IMG/VR virus record: IMGVR_UViG_3300025099_000012
Location: 18,300 to 82,299 of that record
Source of the DNA: a virus
Reading direction: 5' to 3' (one strand)
Length of the DNA stretch: 64,000 bases
Numbering within the stretch: position 1 is the stretch's first letter; each line of letters starts with the position of its first letter. Positions 23,471 through 61,041 of this stretch are shown here, in pieces. Below the pieces are notes generated by a model. The model was not told where the DNA came from. It searched no databases and saw only the letters and a list, made by a program, of their open reading frames with translations. The position numbers and the translations under genes were made by a program.

Positions 23471-25009
23471 TTATAAATTAAAGCTGTCACTATTGTAGTC
23501 CATCTGTAAACTACCTCTTCTAAGTAGTCCACCCATAGTTAATACCATTGAGTCCACAGCGTCATCATGTGGTGAATGTCCAAAGTTCAGTAGTTCTTCT
23601 TCAAGTACATCCCACTTACGCCATTTATTCCAGACAACTTTTTTATGTTCATATAAACCAAGCACGCCTCTTAGTCTTGCAAGCTTATCTCCTTTGAAAC
23701 CTTTTACTGGAGAAACTGAAAGATTATAAAGTGCACGTTGCTCTAGGATTATTCTTTTGAAATCTCCTTCAAAAGAGTTTTGATAAGCAACCGCTTCAGG
23801 CCATATGATGCATGGGGACATTGTTGGAAAGAAGTCACCCTCGTCATTTTCAAGAACAATATTCCAATCAGCAAGCATTTGACAGAGTAAATCCATCTTG
23901 TCGAGATTTCCCATTGTCCGGGCACGACGTTGATCAATCATGAATAGCTTGCCATCTTTAATCCCACCTAGGGTCATGACTGTCCAGTCATTCTTTTCCT
24001 TTAGTCCAGCACTTAAGTCAATACCCACACCAAGGCAGTCGTAATCCTCTGGCACTTCACCTTTAATGATTAATTCCGGTGATATCCCAACATCCGTTGA
24101 CTTAACAGCTGTATTTAAATACTGATATGCAAATGCAACTCTATCTTCTGTCTTTCGTTCATTCAGATATTTCATTGACCAGAACTCTGGCCAGTATGAA
24201 CGTTGTTTACCATCTTGGTCAGTTATGACTGCTCGCTGAACAATCTGTTTCCATTTGTTCTTTGGAACGAATAACGTGGCGTGAATGTCGTCATAGTGGA
24301 AGCGGGTTCCCAAACAAATAGCCCGTGCACCTTGAAACATCGTTGGTGCGATAACGTTAGACCACGTCTGCTCCATCTCACGGCGAATGTCTGGGTTGTT
24401 GATTGAAATGGCAGATTTGATAGGGTCATCAATAAGCACCAACTGCGATCGTTTAGAGGTGATTGCACCTTTGAGACCACCACACGCAATTGTGAAAGCT
24501 TCTTCACCCGCTGTGTCAATTCCTGCAAACTCATAATCAATAGACCAGTATTCATCTGAACGTTTTATTTTTGAGAGCCTTACCATTGGGAAGATCTCTC
24601 TGTATTTATTACTTGTAAGTATCCCTTTGATTGTTGCCGATTTCGCTCGGCTTATGTCTACCATGTAGGCGATGTACAGAATACGTAGCATCTTCTTGGC
24701 AGCTGCATGTCGTCCAATCATCCAGGCTGCAAACAAACCAAGGACAGTACTTTTTGCAGAACCACGTGGTGCGAGGATCGATGTATTTGGACCTGCGATT
24801 CCAATCAGGCATTCACTATCTTCTCCAGTACATAACTCTGTATGCCACTCCAGCATATGTTTTGCAGGAGCTTTTCCCATGAACTTACAAAAGTCTTGGA
24901 AGCTGTCTCTTGCTTTTAGAACATCTTCACTTGGTGGTTTGACAGTTACCTTTGTAGCTGTCATCAGTGCTATTCGTCTGTACGCTAATGATGCGCTAGG
25001 TATTGCCAT
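23471..25009 (-). CDS. terL: Terminase large subunit (DNA-packaging ATPase/nuclease)
   Basis: 512 residues. The ATPase half has a Walker A-type APRGSAKST (about residues 80-88), QLVLIDDPI as Walker B, and CLGTRFHYDD as the coupling region. The nuclease half has GVGIDLSAGL, a central WPEAVAYQNSFEGDF and HSPHDDAVDSM with the acidic residues of the RNase H-like fold. It powers DNA translocation through the portal and cuts concatemers. Start at 25009 (MAIPSAS); an in-frame ATG at about 24964 (MTATKV) is possible. It comes after small genes at 25047-25867, one of which may be the small subunit. Confidence 0.93.
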   Translation of the reverse strand: MAIPSASLAYRRIALMTATKVTVKPPSEDVLKARDSFQDFCKFMGKAPAKHMLEWHTELCTGEDSECLIGIAGPNTSILAPRGSAKSTVLGLFAAWMIGRHAAAKKMLRILYIAYMVDISRAKSATIKGILTSNKYREIFPMVRLSKIKRSDEYWSIDYEFAGIDTAGEEAFTIACGGLKGAITSKRSQLVLIDDPIKSAISINNPDIRREMEQTWSNVIAPTMFQGARAICLGTRFHYDDIHATLFVPKNKWKQIVQRAVITDQDGKQRSYWPEFWSMKYLNERKTEDRVAFAYQYLNTAVKSTDVGISPELIIKGEVPEDYDCLGVGIDLSAGLKEKNDWTVMTLGGIKDGKLFMIDQRRARTMGNLDKMDLLCQMLADWNIVLENDEGDFFPTMSPCIIWPEAVAYQNSFEGDFKRIILEQRALYNLSVSPVKGFKGDKLARLRGVLGLYEHKKVVWNKWRKWDVLEEELLNFGHSPHDDAVDSMVLTMGGLLRRGSLQMDYNSDSFNL

Positions 25010-48467: not shown

Positions 48468-48533
48468 TTATCAGGCATCTTAACAAGTGTAAGTCCTTAT
48501 TTATAATTAAATATAAGTAATTAATTATTGATA

Positions 48534-49259
48534 ATGTTTTCAAATAAACTTAGAGACCGTTTAGATGGTTATATTGTTAGGCACGATGGCCGTATCAATA
48601 AAGCTTTAGGCGGTTCTCCCTTTGAAGACGCTGACCCCTCCTCCGATATTTATAAAAGAGTTTTACCTAGCCTTCAGCCATACATTGAATTTAGTGACAA
48701 TGAAAAAGCCGCATTAGGAATGTATGGTGAAAACGTACATCAATATTACAAACAACTAAATAATCAACTACGCACTCCTAATGCTTCACCTTTAGATCCT
48801 GAATCAGCAGAAATTGTGGAGTTCATGCAATCTAATCTTGCAAGTGCTCTTCAAAAACTAAAAGCTGTTCAACCGAGAGGTCATACTAGATTCACTAATG
48901 GCCAAGAAACACAAGTTCCTGGTCAATTCAATCGTGCTGTAACAGGCGATTTTGTTGAACAACTATCACGTTTAAAGCCAGGAGACGAAATTTCTGATGC
49001 TGGATTTGCTTCTTATACAGATAGAGGTGGTCCTACATTAGAAATGTTTTTATCTAATAACAAAGATGTTCCTAATGCTGTTATTCAATTAGCTGAAGGC
49101 TCATCTTTAAGGAACATTTCTCCAGTCACTGAATACCATGAAGGCGAGCACTTAGCTATGCCTAATACAAGGTATAAACTTCAAAGTGCTAACCCTGCTG
49201 GTCATTACAGTAGAAAAGCTGGTGATTTGCCTTTATATATTCTTGAAATTCTTGAATAG
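48534..49259 (+). CDS. Candidate ADP-ribosyltransferase (R-S-ExE class)
   Basis: 241 residues from ATG at 48534. The C-terminal half matches the toxin-type ADP-ribosyltransferase layout: HTRFTNG with Arg119, then KPGDEISDAGFASYTD with Ser160 (like D-x-G-F-x-S-T-S), then EYHEGEHLAMPNTRYKL with E203-G-E205 (like ExExLxPxxxxxxI). The N-terminal half holds helix ALGMYGENVHQYYKQLNNQL-R, as in the arm helix of that family. It would transfer ADP-ribose from NAD+ to a host protein, as T4 Alt/ModA do. Divergence is high; an inactive relative or structural protein is possible. Confidence 0.55.
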   Translation: MFSNKLRDRLDGYIVRHDGRINKALGGSPFEDADPSSDIYKRVLPSLQPYIEFSDNEKAALGMYGENVHQYYKQLNNQLRTPNASPLDPESAEIVEFMQSNLASALQKLKAVQPRGHTRFTNGQETQVPGQFNRAVTGDFVEQLSRLKPGDEISDAGFASYTDRGGPTLEMFLSNNKDVPNAVIQLAEGSSLRNISPVTEYHEGEHLAMPNTRYKLQSANPAGHYSRKAGDLPLYILEILE

Positions 49260-50466: not shown

Positions 50467-51549
50467 ATGGCTTCAACTGTTATGCAGCGCTCCGGCGCTA
50501 AGAGTAACTGGGAAGAGTTTTGTCAGTGGGTTACGAGCACCAACAACCGTCTTTATGTCGGTTGGTTTGGAATTCTCATGATCCCTACGCTCCTCGCAGC
50601 GACTATTTGTTTCATTATCGCCTTCGTTGGCGCACCCCCTGTAGATATTGATGGCATACGTGAACCTGTTGCTGGATCGCTCCTATACGGAAATAACATT
50701 GTATCGGGAGCAGTTGTCCCGTCTAGCAATGCAATCGGACTCCACTTCTATCCCATCTGGGAAGCAGCTTCACTCGACGAGTGGCTCTACAACGGAGGAC
50801 CATTTCAACTCGTTGTCTTCCACTTCCTCATCGGTATCTACTCTTACATGGGACGAGAATGGGAACTTAGCTACCGGTTAGGTATGCGCCCATGGATCTT
50901 CGTTGCTTACTCTGCACCAGTTGCAGCAGCAAGTGCCGTCTTTCTTGTTTATCCCTTCGGTCAGGGTTCCTTCTCTGACGCAATGCCTTTAGGTATCTCT
51001 GGAACCTTCAACTACATGTTGGTGTTCCAAGCTGAGCACAACATCCTGATGCACCCCTTCCACATGCTGGGTGTTGCAGGAGTCTTTGGTGGAAGTTTAT
51101 TTTCTGCTATGCATGGTTCTCTTGTTACATCATCTCTCGTTCGTGAAACTACTGAAAATGTTTCTCAAAACTATGGCTATAAATTTGGACAGGAAGAAGA
51201 GACGTACAACATCGTTGCAGCGCACGGCTATTTTGGTAGGCTTATTTTTCAGTATGCTTCTTTTAACAACAGTCGTAGTCTCCACTTTTTCCTTGCCGCT
51301 TGGCCTGTTGTTGGCATTTGGTTTACCGCTCTTGGTGTCTCTACAATGGCGTTCAACCTAAATGGTTTTAACTTCAATCAATCTATACTTGATAGCAACA
51401 AACGTGTTGTTAATACTTGGGGAGATATCCTCAATCGCGCTGGACTTGGTTTAGAAGTTATTCATGAAAGAAATGCACATAATTTCCCATTGGATCTTGC
51501 ATCAGCTACCACTACTCCAGTGGCCTTGACTGCGCCAAGTATTGGCTAA
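50467..51549 (+). CDS. psbA: Photosystem II D1 protein
   Basis: 360 residues, full length. All five membrane helices and the usual landmarks are present: [58 protein letters not shown] and [15 protein letters not shown]. The C-terminal tail after HNFPLDLA is processed in hosts. E131 here equals position 130, the glutamate of high-light D1 forms. It replaces damaged host D1 so that photosynthesis continues during infection. Codon use changes from host-like to T-ending at about 51080, suggesting a recombinant gene. Confidence 0.98.
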
Positions 51550-53314: not shown

Positions 53315-53326
53315 TTGTTCGAAATT

Positions 53327-54004
53327 ATGTCAGCTGCTGAAGAGAATACTCGTATGATGCGCATGGCCGCACCTACGGGTACTCGAAATTCAATTACTAT
53401 TAGTAATGTAGGTAACGCTCGTTCATCATCAAACAGTGCCTCCTCTGTCAGTGGAAACGCTACCGCTGGTGGAATGGCTGTTCCGATGATGATGATGTCC
53501 ACCCCAACCCCAACTCCACCTCCAATGATGGATGGAATGGGTGCTGCTATCAGAGCAGAACGTGAACGCGCCCGGAACATGGCTCTCTCAGTAAGAGCTA
53601 GGCGTCAGCGTCAAAGAGACATGGATCGTGCAACAAGAGCTGATCGACAACGTGCTCGTGACATGGCACGTGCAACAAGAGCTGAACGCAGACGAGCTCG
53701 TCAAATGTCAGGCAGCGGAATGAGCATGGCTCCTGACGGAATGAGCATGGCTATGAGCATGACAGCAGAAGAACAACGACAGGCAAGACGTCGCTCAAGC
53801 CGTCAAATGATGATGGCGATGATGGCTCGACCAATGCTTCTAGGTGAAGCTAATCAACGTCGCATGCGTAGGGATGCTGCAATACGTCGCATGAGGCAAG
53901 CACAACGTCGTAGAGATGCTGAGACACGGCGTCAACGGCAAGCACGTCGTCGTAGAGACCGCGCAATTCGTGCAAGAAGGATGAATATGCGGGGGCGACG
54001 TTAA
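53327..54004 (+). CDS. Arginine-rich 14-residue repeat protein, copy 1
   Basis: 225 residues from ATG at 53327 (MSAAEENTRMMRMAAPTGTR). After a Met/Pro/Thr region come 14-residue repeats: RAERERARNMALSV, RARRQRQRDMDRAT, RADRQRARDMARAT, RAERRRARQM. A second Arg-rich block ends RRRRDRAIRARRMNMRGRR. Each repeat is two heptads, so a long basic helix. The charge suits binding DNA or RNA, as protamine-like condensation. A second gene of this kind follows directly. Confidence 0.6.
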   Translation: MSAAEENTRMMRMAAPTGTRNSITISNVGNARSSSNSASSVSGNATAGGMAVPMMMMSTPTPTPPPMMDGMGAAIRAERERARNMALSVRARRQRQRDMDRATRADRQRARDMARATRAERRRARQMSGSGMSMAPDGMSMAMSMTAEEQRQARRRSSRQMMMAMMARPMLLGEANQRRMRRDAAIRRMRQAQRRRDAETRRQRQARRRRDRAIRARRMNMRGRR

Positions 54005-54011
54005 CCCGGGA

Positions 54012-54467
54012 ATGAACAGCATGTCGCGTGAACCTGCGCGGCAAATGAATTCTCGGGTGAATCAAATGATGGATGCGGAAACTCGTGCTAGTCGCGAGCG
54101 TGCTCGCCGTATGGCGGCCGCTGAACGAGCTAGCCGTGAACGCGCTCGTCGGATGGCTCAAGCAGAGCGGGATAGACGTGAGCGTGCTCGCCGTATGGCA
54201 GCTGCAGAGCGAGCTAGACGTGAACGCGCTCGTCGGATGAGTAGGCCAATGCGCTCACAACCGATGAGACAACCAGCTCCAATGAGACGACCTCCTCCAA
54301 TGAGATCTCGTCCAATGAATAACGATGCTGCAATAAGAGCTAGCCGTGAACGAGCCCGTCGAATGGCAGCTGCAGAACGAGCTAGACGTGAGCGTGCTAG
54401 ACGCATGGCTGCAGCAACAAGAGCTAGACGAGAACGAGCCCGTCGAATGGCACGTCGGAAGCGTTAA
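54012..54467 (+). CDS. Arginine-rich 14-residue repeat protein, copy 2
   Basis: 151 residues (MNSMSREPARQMNSRVNQMM). Four repeats RASRERARRMAAAE, RASRERARRMAQAE, RDRRERARRMAAAE and RARRERARRMSRPM, a Met/Pro/Arg spacer, then three more. About 40% Arg. Repeats are more regular than in copy 1, and the DNA repeats with a 42-base period, so recent internal expansion is likely. ATG is eight bases after copy 1. Confidence 0.6.
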   Translation: MNSMSREPARQMNSRVNQMMDAETRASRERARRMAAAERASRERARRMAQAERDRRERARRMAAAERARRERARRMSRPMRSQPMRQPAPMRRPPPMRSRPMNNDAAIRASRERARRMAAAERARRERARRMAAATRARRERARRMARRKR

Positions 54468-57548: not shown

Positions 57549-57718
57549 AAACATTCATAGAAAGTTTCTTACTTGACTACATAGCAGACAATCCAGACAT
57601 CCCAATATCTACTGACGACATACCTGTTGTCACTGAATACATGTGGATGAACTTTGATTGTTCTGATATGTACTATCAGTTTGAACGATTACTTTCTGCT
57701 TACATTGCTAAAAAATGA
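57545..57718 (+). CDS. Small acidic protein (57 aa)
   Basis: MKTFIESFLLDYIADNPDIP, then VVTEYMWMNFDCSDMYYQFE. ATGA overlaps both neighbours. Helical, aromatic, acidic. Unrecognised. Confidence 0.5.
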   Translation: MKTFIESFLLDYIADNPDIPISTDDIPVVTEYMWMNFDCSDMYYQFERLLSAYIAKK

Positions 57719-58062
57719 TGAAAAATTACAAGCTCTATGTATTTACCCAGGACGGGTGTGCTCCTTGCGATCGGCTCAAGGATCACGTCAAAACTCTCAC
57801 GGAAGACGAAGCAGCTGAACTCGACTTTGTCCCTCTTAAGGCGCCCTCGGGCAGCCGTACGGCGCTTGCGGAGGAGCTATCGGTGGAGTTGTCACCAACA
57901 CTCGTCGTTGTTCATGAAGAAGTCTCCTGTCAATTAGATGATGACGGTGATGAAGATTGTGATTATGTTGAACAATCAGTAGAAAGGTTTGTAGGTGCTA
58001 ATAATATAATTGAACATCTGCATGCCACATTAGATGCATATACTTACGCCCATCCCGAATGA
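57715..58062 (+). CDS. Thioredoxin/glutaredoxin-like protein
   Basis: 115 residues. MMKNYKLYVFTQDGCAPCDR has the redox CAPC after strand beta-1, and ELSPTLVVV the cis-proline strand. An acidic insertion QLDDDGDEDCDYV follows. It probably reduces the phage ribonucleotide reductase encoded just downstream. A stretch around 57840-57900 is GC-rich compared with the flanks, suggesting recent exchange. Unlike host thioredoxins it lacks the WCGPC form. Confidence 0.75.
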   Translation: MMKNYKLYVFTQDGCAPCDRLKDHVKTLTEDEAAELDFVPLKAPSGSRTALAEELSVELSPTLVVVHEEVSCQLDDDGDEDCDYVEQSVERFVGANNIIEHLHATLDAYTYAHPE

Positions 58063-58238
58063 ATCCTGAGTACTATTTATTATTGATTGGTGAGCTTAAT
58101 GGCTGCTATCAATACTTGAAAGTTTTAGGGCAACAACGTGACCTAGAAATCATTGAAGAAATGATTATCAAGTACAACAAATTATATTTCAAGACTAAAA
58201 AAGCATATGAGCAAGAAAGCAAATGTCATCGAGACTAA
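58059..58238 (+). CDS. Small hypothetical protein (59 aa)
   Basis: MNPEYYLLLIGELNGCYQYL, then KVLGQQRDLEIIEEMIIKYN. Helical. ATGA overlap with the gene before; 32-base out-of-frame overlap with the IF-1 gene. Unrecognised. Confidence 0.5.
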   Translation: MNPEYYLLLIGELNGCYQYLKVLGQQRDLEIIEEMIIKYNKLYFKTKKAYEQESKCHRD

Positions 58239-58434
58239 AGGCACAATTTTCAAAGAAAGTGGTAACGGTTATTTCAATGTTGAATTAGATGAGCCTCCAG
58301 AGCATAAATGTCTTTGTAGAGCATCTGGTCGATTGATTACTAGAAAAATCCAACTATTAGTTGGTGACCGAGTTACCGTAGAACTTAGCCCATATGACTT
58401 GGGACGAGGACGTATTACATTGCGAGAAAAATAA
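58207..58434 (+). CDS. infA: Translation initiation factor IF-1
   Basis: 75 residues, the usual IF-1 length. VIETKGTIFKESGNGYFNVE, LCRASGRLITRKIQLLVGD and RVTVELSPYDLGRGRITLRE match the S1/OB fold of bacterial IF-1, including the near-invariant DRVTVELSPYDL-RGRI. IF-1 binds the 30S A site and helps start translation. The gene lies between the thioredoxin-like gene and mazG in a tight operon. It may favour phage messages. Divergent central strand (PEHKCLCRAS) suggests long residence in phage. Confidence 0.9.
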   Translation: MSKKANVIETKGTIFKESGNGYFNVELDEPPEHKCLCRASGRLITRKIQLLVGDRVTVELSPYDLGRGRITLREK

Positions 58435-58868
58435 TGAGTTTAATGAATCAAGCCCGTAAATTTCGGGAAGTTTTCAGTCAAGAATCACTTGATAATATTT
58501 CTCGATACGGTTTTATTAAAAAGAAACTGTGGGATATGCAAGTCTCTCTTGTTGAGGAAGAAGCTGTAGAGTTTCTACAAGCCTCACGAGAGTGCTTCGC
58601 AAATCCAGTAGATCAAGAACTACGCGAAAATCTAGTCAAAGAATTATCAGATCTTGTCTTTGTTTGCTACCAGTTTGCTGCTACTTATAACATCGAATTA
58701 GACGTAGCAATGCAACGCGTATTTGAATCTAATCTCAGTAAACTAGATGAACAAGGGAAGCCCATCTACAGAGAAGATGGCAAAGTTCTAAAAGGACCTA
58801 ATTATAAACAAGCAGATTTATCTGGTTGTGTGCCCGAAGCTCAATCCTATTGCAAACGAGACAAATGA
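58434..58868 (+). CDS. mazG: MazG-like nucleotide pyrophosphohydrolase
   Basis: 144 residues. Metal-binding motif EEEAVEFLQASRE and the second half ENLVKELSDLVFVCYQFAAT give the ExxE...ExxD of the all-alpha NTP pyrophosphatase superfamily. DVAMQRVFESNLSKLDEQGK and a PIYREDGKVLKGPNYK tail match cyanophage MazG-like proteins. Proposed roles are cleaning dNTP pools or lowering (p)ppGpp. The start shares a base with the IF-1 stop, and the stop overlaps nrdA (ATGA). Confidence 0.85.
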   Translation: MSLMNQARKFREVFSQESLDNISRYGFIKKKLWDMQVSLVEEEAVEFLQASRECFANPVDQELRENLVKELSDLVFVCYQFAATYNIELDVAMQRVFESNLSKLDEQGKPIYREDGKVLKGPNYKQADLSGCVPEAQSYCKRDK

Positions 58869-60292
58869 AAACTAATAACGTAATTGCACGAACTGGTCGT
58901 GTTCAGAACTGGATGGATGACCCCACATCACGACTGCCTGTCAGCTGCACAGTTTTTGTGTGTGAAGACAGCATGACCGGTGAAAACGGAATTGAAGCTA
59001 GCTGGCGTTACGTAAGTCACGGCCTTCGCTTCGGTGCAGGAGTTGCAGTTCATTTGACAAACCTACGTCCAGCAGGTCATGACAATGGCAAAGGACTTGT
59101 AAGTTCAGGTCCATGCTCTTTTGGAAAAATTTACTCCTGTCTTAATGAGCAGCTACGTAGGGGCGGTGTCTATAAAAATGGTGCTGTCGTTCTTCATTTA
59201 GATCTAAACCACGCTGATATTCTTGAATTTGTCCAAATGCCTAGACAAGAAATACCTTGGGCTAAGCGCTGCGTTAACCTTTCTCCAGTTATGTGGGACA
59301 TGGCTACTCCACAAGTCAAGCAAGAAATACTCAAAGGCATTGCACGTGGAGATATATGGCTTGCAAAAATCAGACATGATCAACATGGTGAAAGAATTTT
59401 CGCGAATGTCTGTTTGGAAGTTTTTATAAAATCAAGAGGCACTTGTTTGTTAGAACACATTTCCTTAGGTGGCTGCACTCTTGAAGAGCTTCCTGGAGCC
59501 TTTGTCGCTGGTATGGCAGAACTATGTTCGTTACATCCCAATACTGGTGTTGAGAAAACTAGCGAGTATCTTTCTCAAGATGAAGATCGTCAAGTTGGAC
59601 TAGGGATGCTGGGTCTAGCCAACCTCCTTGCACTGGAAGGTGTCACATATGCCGAGTTTGGTGAAGCATTGACCGCTCATAACTATCCTGAAGGTCAATA
59701 CAACGTGACTCCTGCTGCACGTAAGATAGTTAAAGCACTTCAAGCAGGTATCGACGGAGCAACTGAAGTAGCACGAAACGCCAACATGGATCGTGCTTTT
59801 GCGATTGCACCTACTGCCTCTTGTAGTTATCGTTATAAAGATCGAGCAGGCTATACCACCACCCCCGAAATTGCACCGCCAATCGGGCGTACCGTGGATA
59901 GGGACAGCTCTACATTCGGGGTCGAATCCTTCGATTACGGTGATGTAGAAACAGCTGAATCAGTAGGCTGGGAAAACTATAAACGCGTAGTTGATGGAAT
60001 CATGGAGATGCTTAATCGCACCGGCCTAGCCCATGGCTATAGTTTCAATTCATGGAGTGACGTAGTTACTTACGACAACGACTTCATTGAAAGCTGGCTT
60101 GATTCTCCGCAAACTTCGCTGTACTACAGTTTGCAAGTTATGCAGAACACGCAAGCCAAAGATGATGCTTTAGCTGCCTTAGATGGTAACTTTGGTGCAA
60201 TGTTCGGCTTTGATGATTCAGAAGATTTAGTCAGCGATCCCGTGCTCGATATCTTTAATGATCCCGCTTCATGCGTGGGTTGTGCAGAGTAA
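58865..60292 (+). CDS. nrdA: Ribonucleotide reductase alpha subunit, short cyanophage class I
   Basis: 475 residues, much shorter than standard NrdA (about 700). GPCSFGKIYSCLNEQLRRGG, the catalytic loop FANVCLEVF (N-x-C-x-E radical site), SLGGCTLEELPGAFVAGMAE and APTASCSYRYKDRAG. The end is DPASCVGCAE, the redox cysteine tail. This is the Synechococcus/Prochlorococcus phage type once called class II; an nrdB follows, so class I. It makes dNDPs from NDPs for phage DNA. I use the ATG at 58865; an earlier in-frame ATG at 58826 is inside mazG. Confidence 0.9.
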   Translation: MKTNNVIARTGRVQNWMDDPTSRLPVSCTVFVCEDSMTGENGIEASWRYVSHGLRFGAGVAVHLTNLRPAGHDNGKGLVSSGPCSFGKIYSCLNEQLRRGGVYKNGAVVLHLDLNHADILEFVQMPRQEIPWAKRCVNLSPVMWDMATPQVKQEILKGIARGDIWLAKIRHDQHGERIFANVCLEVFIKSRGTCLLEHISLGGCTLEELPGAFVAGMAELCSLHPNTGVEKTSEYLSQDEDRQVGLGMLGLANLLALEGVTYAEFGEALTAHNYPEGQYNVTPAARKIVKALQAGIDGATEVARNANMDRAFAIAPTASCSYRYKDRAGYTTTPEIAPPIGRTVDRDSSTFGVESFDYGDVETAESVGWENYKRVVDGIMEMLNRTGLAHGYSFNSWSDVVTYDNDFIESWLDSPQTSLYYSLQVMQNTQAKDDALAALDGNFGAMFGFDDSEDLVSDPVLDIFNDPASCVGCAE

Positions 60293-60309
60293 ACCTATTA
60301 ACTATAAAA

Positions 60310-61041
60310 ATGAAAGCAGAAACTCCTTACATTCATCTTCATCAGCGCAAACGCACTTGGACTCCAGTCGAAATATCTGCTGGTCAATTGCTTACAGGCG
60401 GTGAAGAAGTCATTCAACGTGCATTAGCACTTCGTTGTCTTGAAATACCTGTAGGTAATTTCATTAGTGATGCTATGAAAGGCGATCTTCCTGACGTCAA
60501 AGGCTGTAAAGAGCTTCTAGCTTCAAACGTTATTGATGAAGAAAATCATGATATTGCCCTCAATTTCGCAGCTAAAGCGCATGAGGTTTCCCCTAAATTT
60601 GAAAAAGAAGCTGCTCACATCTGTAAGACGTGGTTGGAACTTGATAGGCACCCTGTTCTCAAAGCTGTGGTCCTTGAAAGATCCGTGTTCTTCGTCCTCC
60701 TACCGATATTCCGATTCCTGGGAGATACAGGATTGCGCACGACAAGTGCCGATATCAGCCGAGACGAACAGACCCACGTCGCCGCTAACACGCTTGTCTG
60801 TGAAGCGCTTGGACTTAAGTCAGACAAGACGCTCAATAACTTGAGGAGAGCTACGGTTGCTTGGTGCCTTCAATCACTCAAAGGAGAAGCTGAACATAGA
60901 CACTTATCCAGCAACTTCTGGCTTAAAAGTTCAGATTCTCTGTACACTAGAGGTAAAGCTGAAGGGTTAGCCGAGACGCGTGCTAGCAGAATGCCAGCTT
61001 TTTTTGAGACTGCCAATCAGAATCTACCGCAGTATGCATAA
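60310..61041 (+). CDS. nrdB: Ribonucleotide reductase beta subunit without radical tyrosine
   Basis: 243 residues. Metal ligands can be placed at E45, E77 and H80 (EENH), E123, E153 and H156 (DEQTH). The position four after H80, where class Ia keeps the radical Tyr, is L84. So the radical or cofactor must differ, as reported for this cyanophage lineage. ATG at 60310; the end overlaps the next start by one base. The stretch 60660-60840 is GC-richer than the rest. Confidence 0.88.
   Translation: MKAETPYIHLHQRKRTWTPVEISAGQLLTGGEEVIQRALALRCLEIPVGNFISDAMKGDLPDVKGCKELLASNVIDEENHDIALNFAAKAHEVSPKFEKEAAHICKTWLELDRHPVLKAVVLERSVFFVLLPIFRFLGDTGLRTTSADISRDEQTHVAANTLVCEALGLKSDKTLNNLRRATVAWCLQSLKGEAEHRHLSSNFWLKSSDSLYTRGKAEGLAETRASRMPAFFETANQNLPQYA

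Follow-up and report, generated by a model that had tools for sequence, protein, structure and literature searches.

A picocyanobacterial-type translation initiation factor IF-1 encoded by marine S-EIV1-like cyanophages

The window analysed here, a stretch of 64,000 nucleotides comprising bases 18300-82299 of an 82,299-base IMG/VR virus record (IMGVR_UViG_3300025099_000012), carries a gene for a genuine phage-encoded translation initiation factor IF-1, the only PF01176 match in the record. The protein appears to share its ancestry with the divergent IF-1 of picocyanobacteria, and its most economical reading, which we consider probable though by no means assured, is that it supplements or displaces the host IF-1 at the A site of the 30S subunit. 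Initiation factors are seldom encoded by phages, and the literature examples that we found come from huge phages (PMC7162821), whereas here a widespread lineage of mid-sized marine cyanophages retains the gene under strong selection. Our literature search on phage and cyanophage IF-1 returned nothing specific besides that paper. As far as searched, the lineage-wide presence of IF-1 in mid-sized cyanophages, the ancestry shared with a host replacement IF-1 and the fixed loss of both Arg41 and Arg46 contacts have not been described.

58207..58434, + strand: picocyanobacterial-type IF-1, 75 aa, ATG start (from family matches, host-type alignment, tree and fold)

The initial annotation had claimed a 75-residue IF-1 at this position, and the coordinates of the open reading frame proved exact. 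The protein reached 54.6 bits against Pfam eIF-1a (PF01176; 8.4e-15, cut-off 30.2) and 65.7 bits against NCBIfam TIGR00008 infA (2.7e-18), where the curated equivalog cut-off is 61.15. In full agreement with these scores, all twelve of the twelve solved-structure sequences matched at E ≤0.001 were IF-1. An AlphaFold2 model computed with related rows as input consists of a single small OB barrel (pLDDT 85) that lies within 0.8 Å of 30S-bound IF-1 9fco_I and 1.3 Å of 1hr0_W, and the 11 top Foldseek matches of this model were all IF-1 rather than unrelated OB proteins. An OB domain unrelated to IF-1, e.g., one from the ribosome-assembly GTPase RsgA, was weighed as well, because RsgA_N also exceeds its Pfam cut-off in the window protein (31.0 vs 27) and RsgA structures occur lower down in the Foldseek list. 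However, both IF-1 models outscore RsgA_N by far, RsgA is absent from the 11 best structural matches, and the 75-residue protein stops after the OB fold and lacks the circularly permuted GTPase domain. Scores and protein length in effect refute such an origin, to which we assign a negligible probability.

Two genes of the window identify the type of virus.

23471..25009, - strand: large subunit of the terminase, marking the lineage (54.6% identity with that of S-EIV1)
50467..51549, + strand: psbA (photosystem II D1), cyanophage marker, from gene content

Together with talC and ThyX, which are also present in the window, the closely related terminase and the cyanophage gene content point to a marine S-EIV1-like cyanophage, uncultured and known here from sequence. 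psbA and talC speak for a cyanobacterium as the presumptive host of this uncultured phage. S-EIV1 itself was assigned in a 2017 survey to a genus-level group contributing about 3% of marine cyanophage reads (PMC5332604); no IF-1 was found in its annotation or when its six translated frames were searched with a profile. Elsewhere in the window, two neighbouring reading frames (53315-54467, + strand) are rich in arginine and methionine with repeats of the RERARRM type, the first being matched in one related locus only, and the region 48528-49259 (+ strand) gave a weak ADP-ribosyltransferase domain match below the Pfam cut-off and may encode a phage ADP-ribosyltransferase.

Two scans of IMG/VR recovered 61 further contigs (L002-L054, L300-L307) encoding IF-1 at 69-93% identity. 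The terminase type of the window is present in 14 of 25 tested IF-1 contigs, these being 14 of the 15 of at least 65 kb; two of these long contigs have a terminase frame interrupted by numerous stops, probably through assembly errors. Such frames with many in-frame stops were seen in G341 and G351 (the contigs of L007 and L040) of the IMGVR 3300050343 set, probably reflecting error-rich assembly. Conversely, 30 contigs picked by their terminase contained IF-1 in only three cases, including both contigs longer than 60 kb, the remainder being fragments of up to 57 kb. Contigs of about 67-106 kb indicate mid-sized genomes, and IF-1 is near-universal in the marine S-EIV1-like cyanophages of the window's group. 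The gene is under strong purifying selection: pairwise dN/dS had a median of 0.09 and a maximum of 0.18 for the 235 of 1,326 pairs that were computable without saturation. This selection and the 61 related contigs rule out a chance reading frame. The earlier statement that IF-1 is rarely found in phages holds for what has been deposited, where 36 out of 50,697 annotated phage entries have a match, and fails within the lineage of the window. No named cyanophage among these 50,697 records had an IF-1 match, though about 500 cyanophage records there have psbA. In the same context, IF-1 homologues labelled as hypothetical lie near the record start in the Bacteroides phages DAC16, DAC23, SJC03 and their kin (37-38% identical; MT074137, MT074142, MT074139-41, MT074146). 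Unannotated OR84xxxx records of Listeria, Staphylococcus and Enterococcus 'phage', some of only 1.5 kb, contain IF-1 at 49-51% identity, in one case 75% over a short stretch, and are probably bacterial contamination.

The phage gene is embedded in the following set of genes:

57715..58062, + strand: thioredoxin-like protein (matches below the Pfam cut-off), upstream of IF-1 in the same operon
58059..58238, + strand: DUF7212 small protein, overlapping the IF-1 start by 32 nt
58434..58868, + strand: MazG-like nucleotide pyrophosphohydrolase, its start overlapping the IF-1 stop by 1 nt (TAATG)
58865..60292, + strand: NrdA-like short ribonucleotide reductase large subunit (PF02867, partial), ATGA junction with mazG
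60271..61041, + strand: putative ribonucleotide reductase small subunit (NrdB), without Pfam match, labelled from position and by the earlier reader

The coupled operon with a thioredoxin-like gene, mazG and nrdAB described in the initial annotation was recovered. The genes from the thioredoxin-like gene through DUF7212, IF-1, mazG and nrdA to nrdB are tightly coupled, and among the 61 related loci mazG lies near IF-1 in 59, nrdA and nrdB in 60 each and the thioredoxin-like gene in 55. DUF7212 is not a fixed partner of IF-1, since only 10 of the 61 loci have it. The label nrdB is the weakest in the operon, because the Pfam match of the unusually short NrdA covers just a portion of the barrel domain, and the presumed NrdB has no Pfam match at all.

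To place the phage protein, the IF-1 of its presumptive hosts has to be considered. A sequence of the divergent picocyanobacterial IF-1 served as query and gave matches of 97-99% in Prochlorococcus and Synechococcus. In the family of G003, a Prochlorococcus, 120 of 121 genomes contain a single PF01176 match, which scores about 60 bits, while scores in the rest of the cyanobacterial phylum are mostly 94-103 bits. A published table likewise gives one infA each for Synechococcus WH8102 and Prochlorococcus MED4 (PMC6337551). In picocyanobacterial genomes (L311-L317), the rpsM region reads adk-rpmJ-rpsM and infA is missing, whereas infA precedes rpmJ in two canonical cyanobacteria (L309, L310). In a third canonical genome (L308) infA also lies outside the rpsM region, and relocation by itself is therefore not unique to picocyanobacteria. 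In most picocyanobacterial loci the IF-1 gene is flanked by an NmrA-like gene and a small reading frame on one side and by a thioredoxin reductase gene on the other, and phage and host neighbourhoods have no gene in common except IF-1. Taken together, canonical infA is gone from the ribosomal operon of the Prochlorococcus family, which keeps one divergent, relocated IF-1; our literature search found no paper on such a replacement in marine picocyanobacteria. The initial proposal that the phage might compensate for loss of host IF-1 is not supported, as the presumptive hosts possess, in 120 of 121 genomes, their own divergent IF-1 of the same type as that of the phage.

The kinship of the two proteins is evident from an alignment of 58 phage, 44 host and 102 other rows (71 bacterial and 31 other cyanobacterial). 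The loop between strands 2 and 3 comprises five residues in phage and host rows and three in 100 of the 102 others, and G18-N19-G20, P29, R35, L40, L47 and the motif CLCRA are common to phage and host type. In trees, both groups form one clade with support of 100/100 on a very long stem, which together with the loop insertion and CLCRA marks the phage protein as picocyanobacterial-type. Host copies are monophyletic (99/86, and 98/100 after addition of the more divergent host-type copy G043), while phage monophyly received 75/79 in one tree and was absent from a second, with a non-rejecting AU test (p-AU 0.58). Recent capture from a living group of Prochlorococcus or Synechococcus is unlikely because the host copies make up a clade of their own apart from the phage copies. 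The gene may have been captured by phages from a picocyanobacterium on the stem, or it may have passed in the opposite direction, the trees with their about 74 columns and long outgroup branch offering too little to choose between the two. A bolder version, which we judge improbable, holds that the sole IF-1 of Prochlorococcus and marine Synechococcus is of phage origin: a fast-evolving viral IF-1 would have entered the ancestor of the family and settled beside the thioredoxin reductase gene, allowing canonical infA to be lost. If true, an essential host translation factor would be derived from a virus.

The alignment also bears on ribosome binding. In Clostridioides difficile IF-1, R41 and R46 touch A1492/A1493 and K39 the 530 loop, whereas the side towards S12 is formed by H35, Y60, R64 and R66 (PMC10913371). 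Arg41 is present in all 102 other rows, replaced by Thr in hosts and by Ile or Val in phages; position 46, usually Arg or Lys, is Lys in hosts and Gln or His in 58/58 phage rows. The S1/OB pattern reported at the outset is intact in its '-RGRI' half, while Arg41 and Arg46, normally found in the loop that follows strand 3, are missing. These two arginines are customary in IF-1 but do not strictly define it, given that the sole picocyanobacterial IF-1 has T41/K46. K/R39, Y/F60, R/K64, R66 and R70 are kept in 58/58 phage rows, and H30 in all phage copies. Given I/V41 and Q/H46 in every phage copy, the 30S subunit may be bound less tightly or in another way.

Since the host's only IF-1 is of this type, the phage protein would most likely occupy the same position on the same ribosomes. 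We propose that it would be made together with the nucleotide-metabolism operon, bind at the A site of the host's 30S subunit (h44, 530 loop, S12) alongside host IF2 and IF3, and add to or oust host IF-1 at a time when the cell is swamped with phage mRNA. The rate of initiation would thereby be kept up and initiation possibly tilted towards phage messages. A Shine-Dalgarno signal of four or more nucleotides precedes 12 of 60 phage genes with mechanically chosen starts, compared with about eight expected from shuffling; this marginal signal neither supports nor refutes mRNA selectivity. That the phage may adjust host initiation, as first suggested, is a reasonable inference, in contrast to the version invoking a lost host factor.

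The main rival, which we regard as rather unlikely, is a shut-off or re-tuning factor that occupies the IF-1 site without organising A1492/A1493 in the normal manner, such that host initiation is slowed or re-tuned. It draws on the substitutions at positions 41 and 46, a fixed phage-specific change beyond the T41/K46 of the host; R41 is invariant in 71/71 bacterial and 31/31 other cyanobacterial rows. However, the single IF-1 of the host, presumably functional, is likewise without R41, basic residues of the loop are kept at shifted positions (T-R-K-I-Q in phage, K-F-R-I-K in host), and the gene resides in a replication-supporting operon, not among obvious takeover genes. E. coli IF-1 has been suggested to act as an RNA chaperone or transcription antiterminator. 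Altered decoding-centre contacts on an OB fold would also suit a moonlighting protein serving mainly in this capacity on phage transcripts, off the ribosome, but the retained S12-side residues Y/F60, R/K64 and R66 along with R70 are not obviously needed by a free RNA chaperone, and we hold this alternative to be distinctly improbable. Under the preferred reading, i.e., supplementation or displacement of host IF-1, the virus probably acts directly on the host's start of protein synthesis. Among the genomes searched, this IF-1 type is confined to picocyanobacteria that replaced canonical infA; it links uncultured phages with their hosts and provides a clean test of viral IF-1 use and of the drift of IF-1 from the Arg41/Arg46 contacts.

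The closest known system is the divergent IF-1 of Prochlorococcus and marine Synechococcus, which is 59% identical to the phage protein and shares the five-residue loop, CLCRA and the lack of Arg41. The phage protein differs by an additional N-terminal MSKKAN, by TRKIQ for host KFRIK, by Q/H46 for K46 and by the absence of the basic C-terminal tail, which is also absent in the divergent host-type copy G043. With canonical bacterial IF-1 (TIGR00008; 4ql5, 1hr0) it has fold, length, the GD-V-E-SP[YF]DL-RGRI core, R66 and R70 in common, while Arg41 and Arg/Lys46 are replaced, two residues are inserted and H35 is changed to R. The window virus resembles huge phages with phage-encoded IF1 (PMC7162821) and Lak, Bacteroides DAC and Sinorhizobium Phosso phages in encoding IF-1. 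Their proteins are 36-40% identical to that of the window, and other viral-contig IF-1s on the tree (L055-L067) form branches separate from its lineage. Unlike the huge phages, this lineage has mid-sized genomes, nearly all of which carry IF-1.
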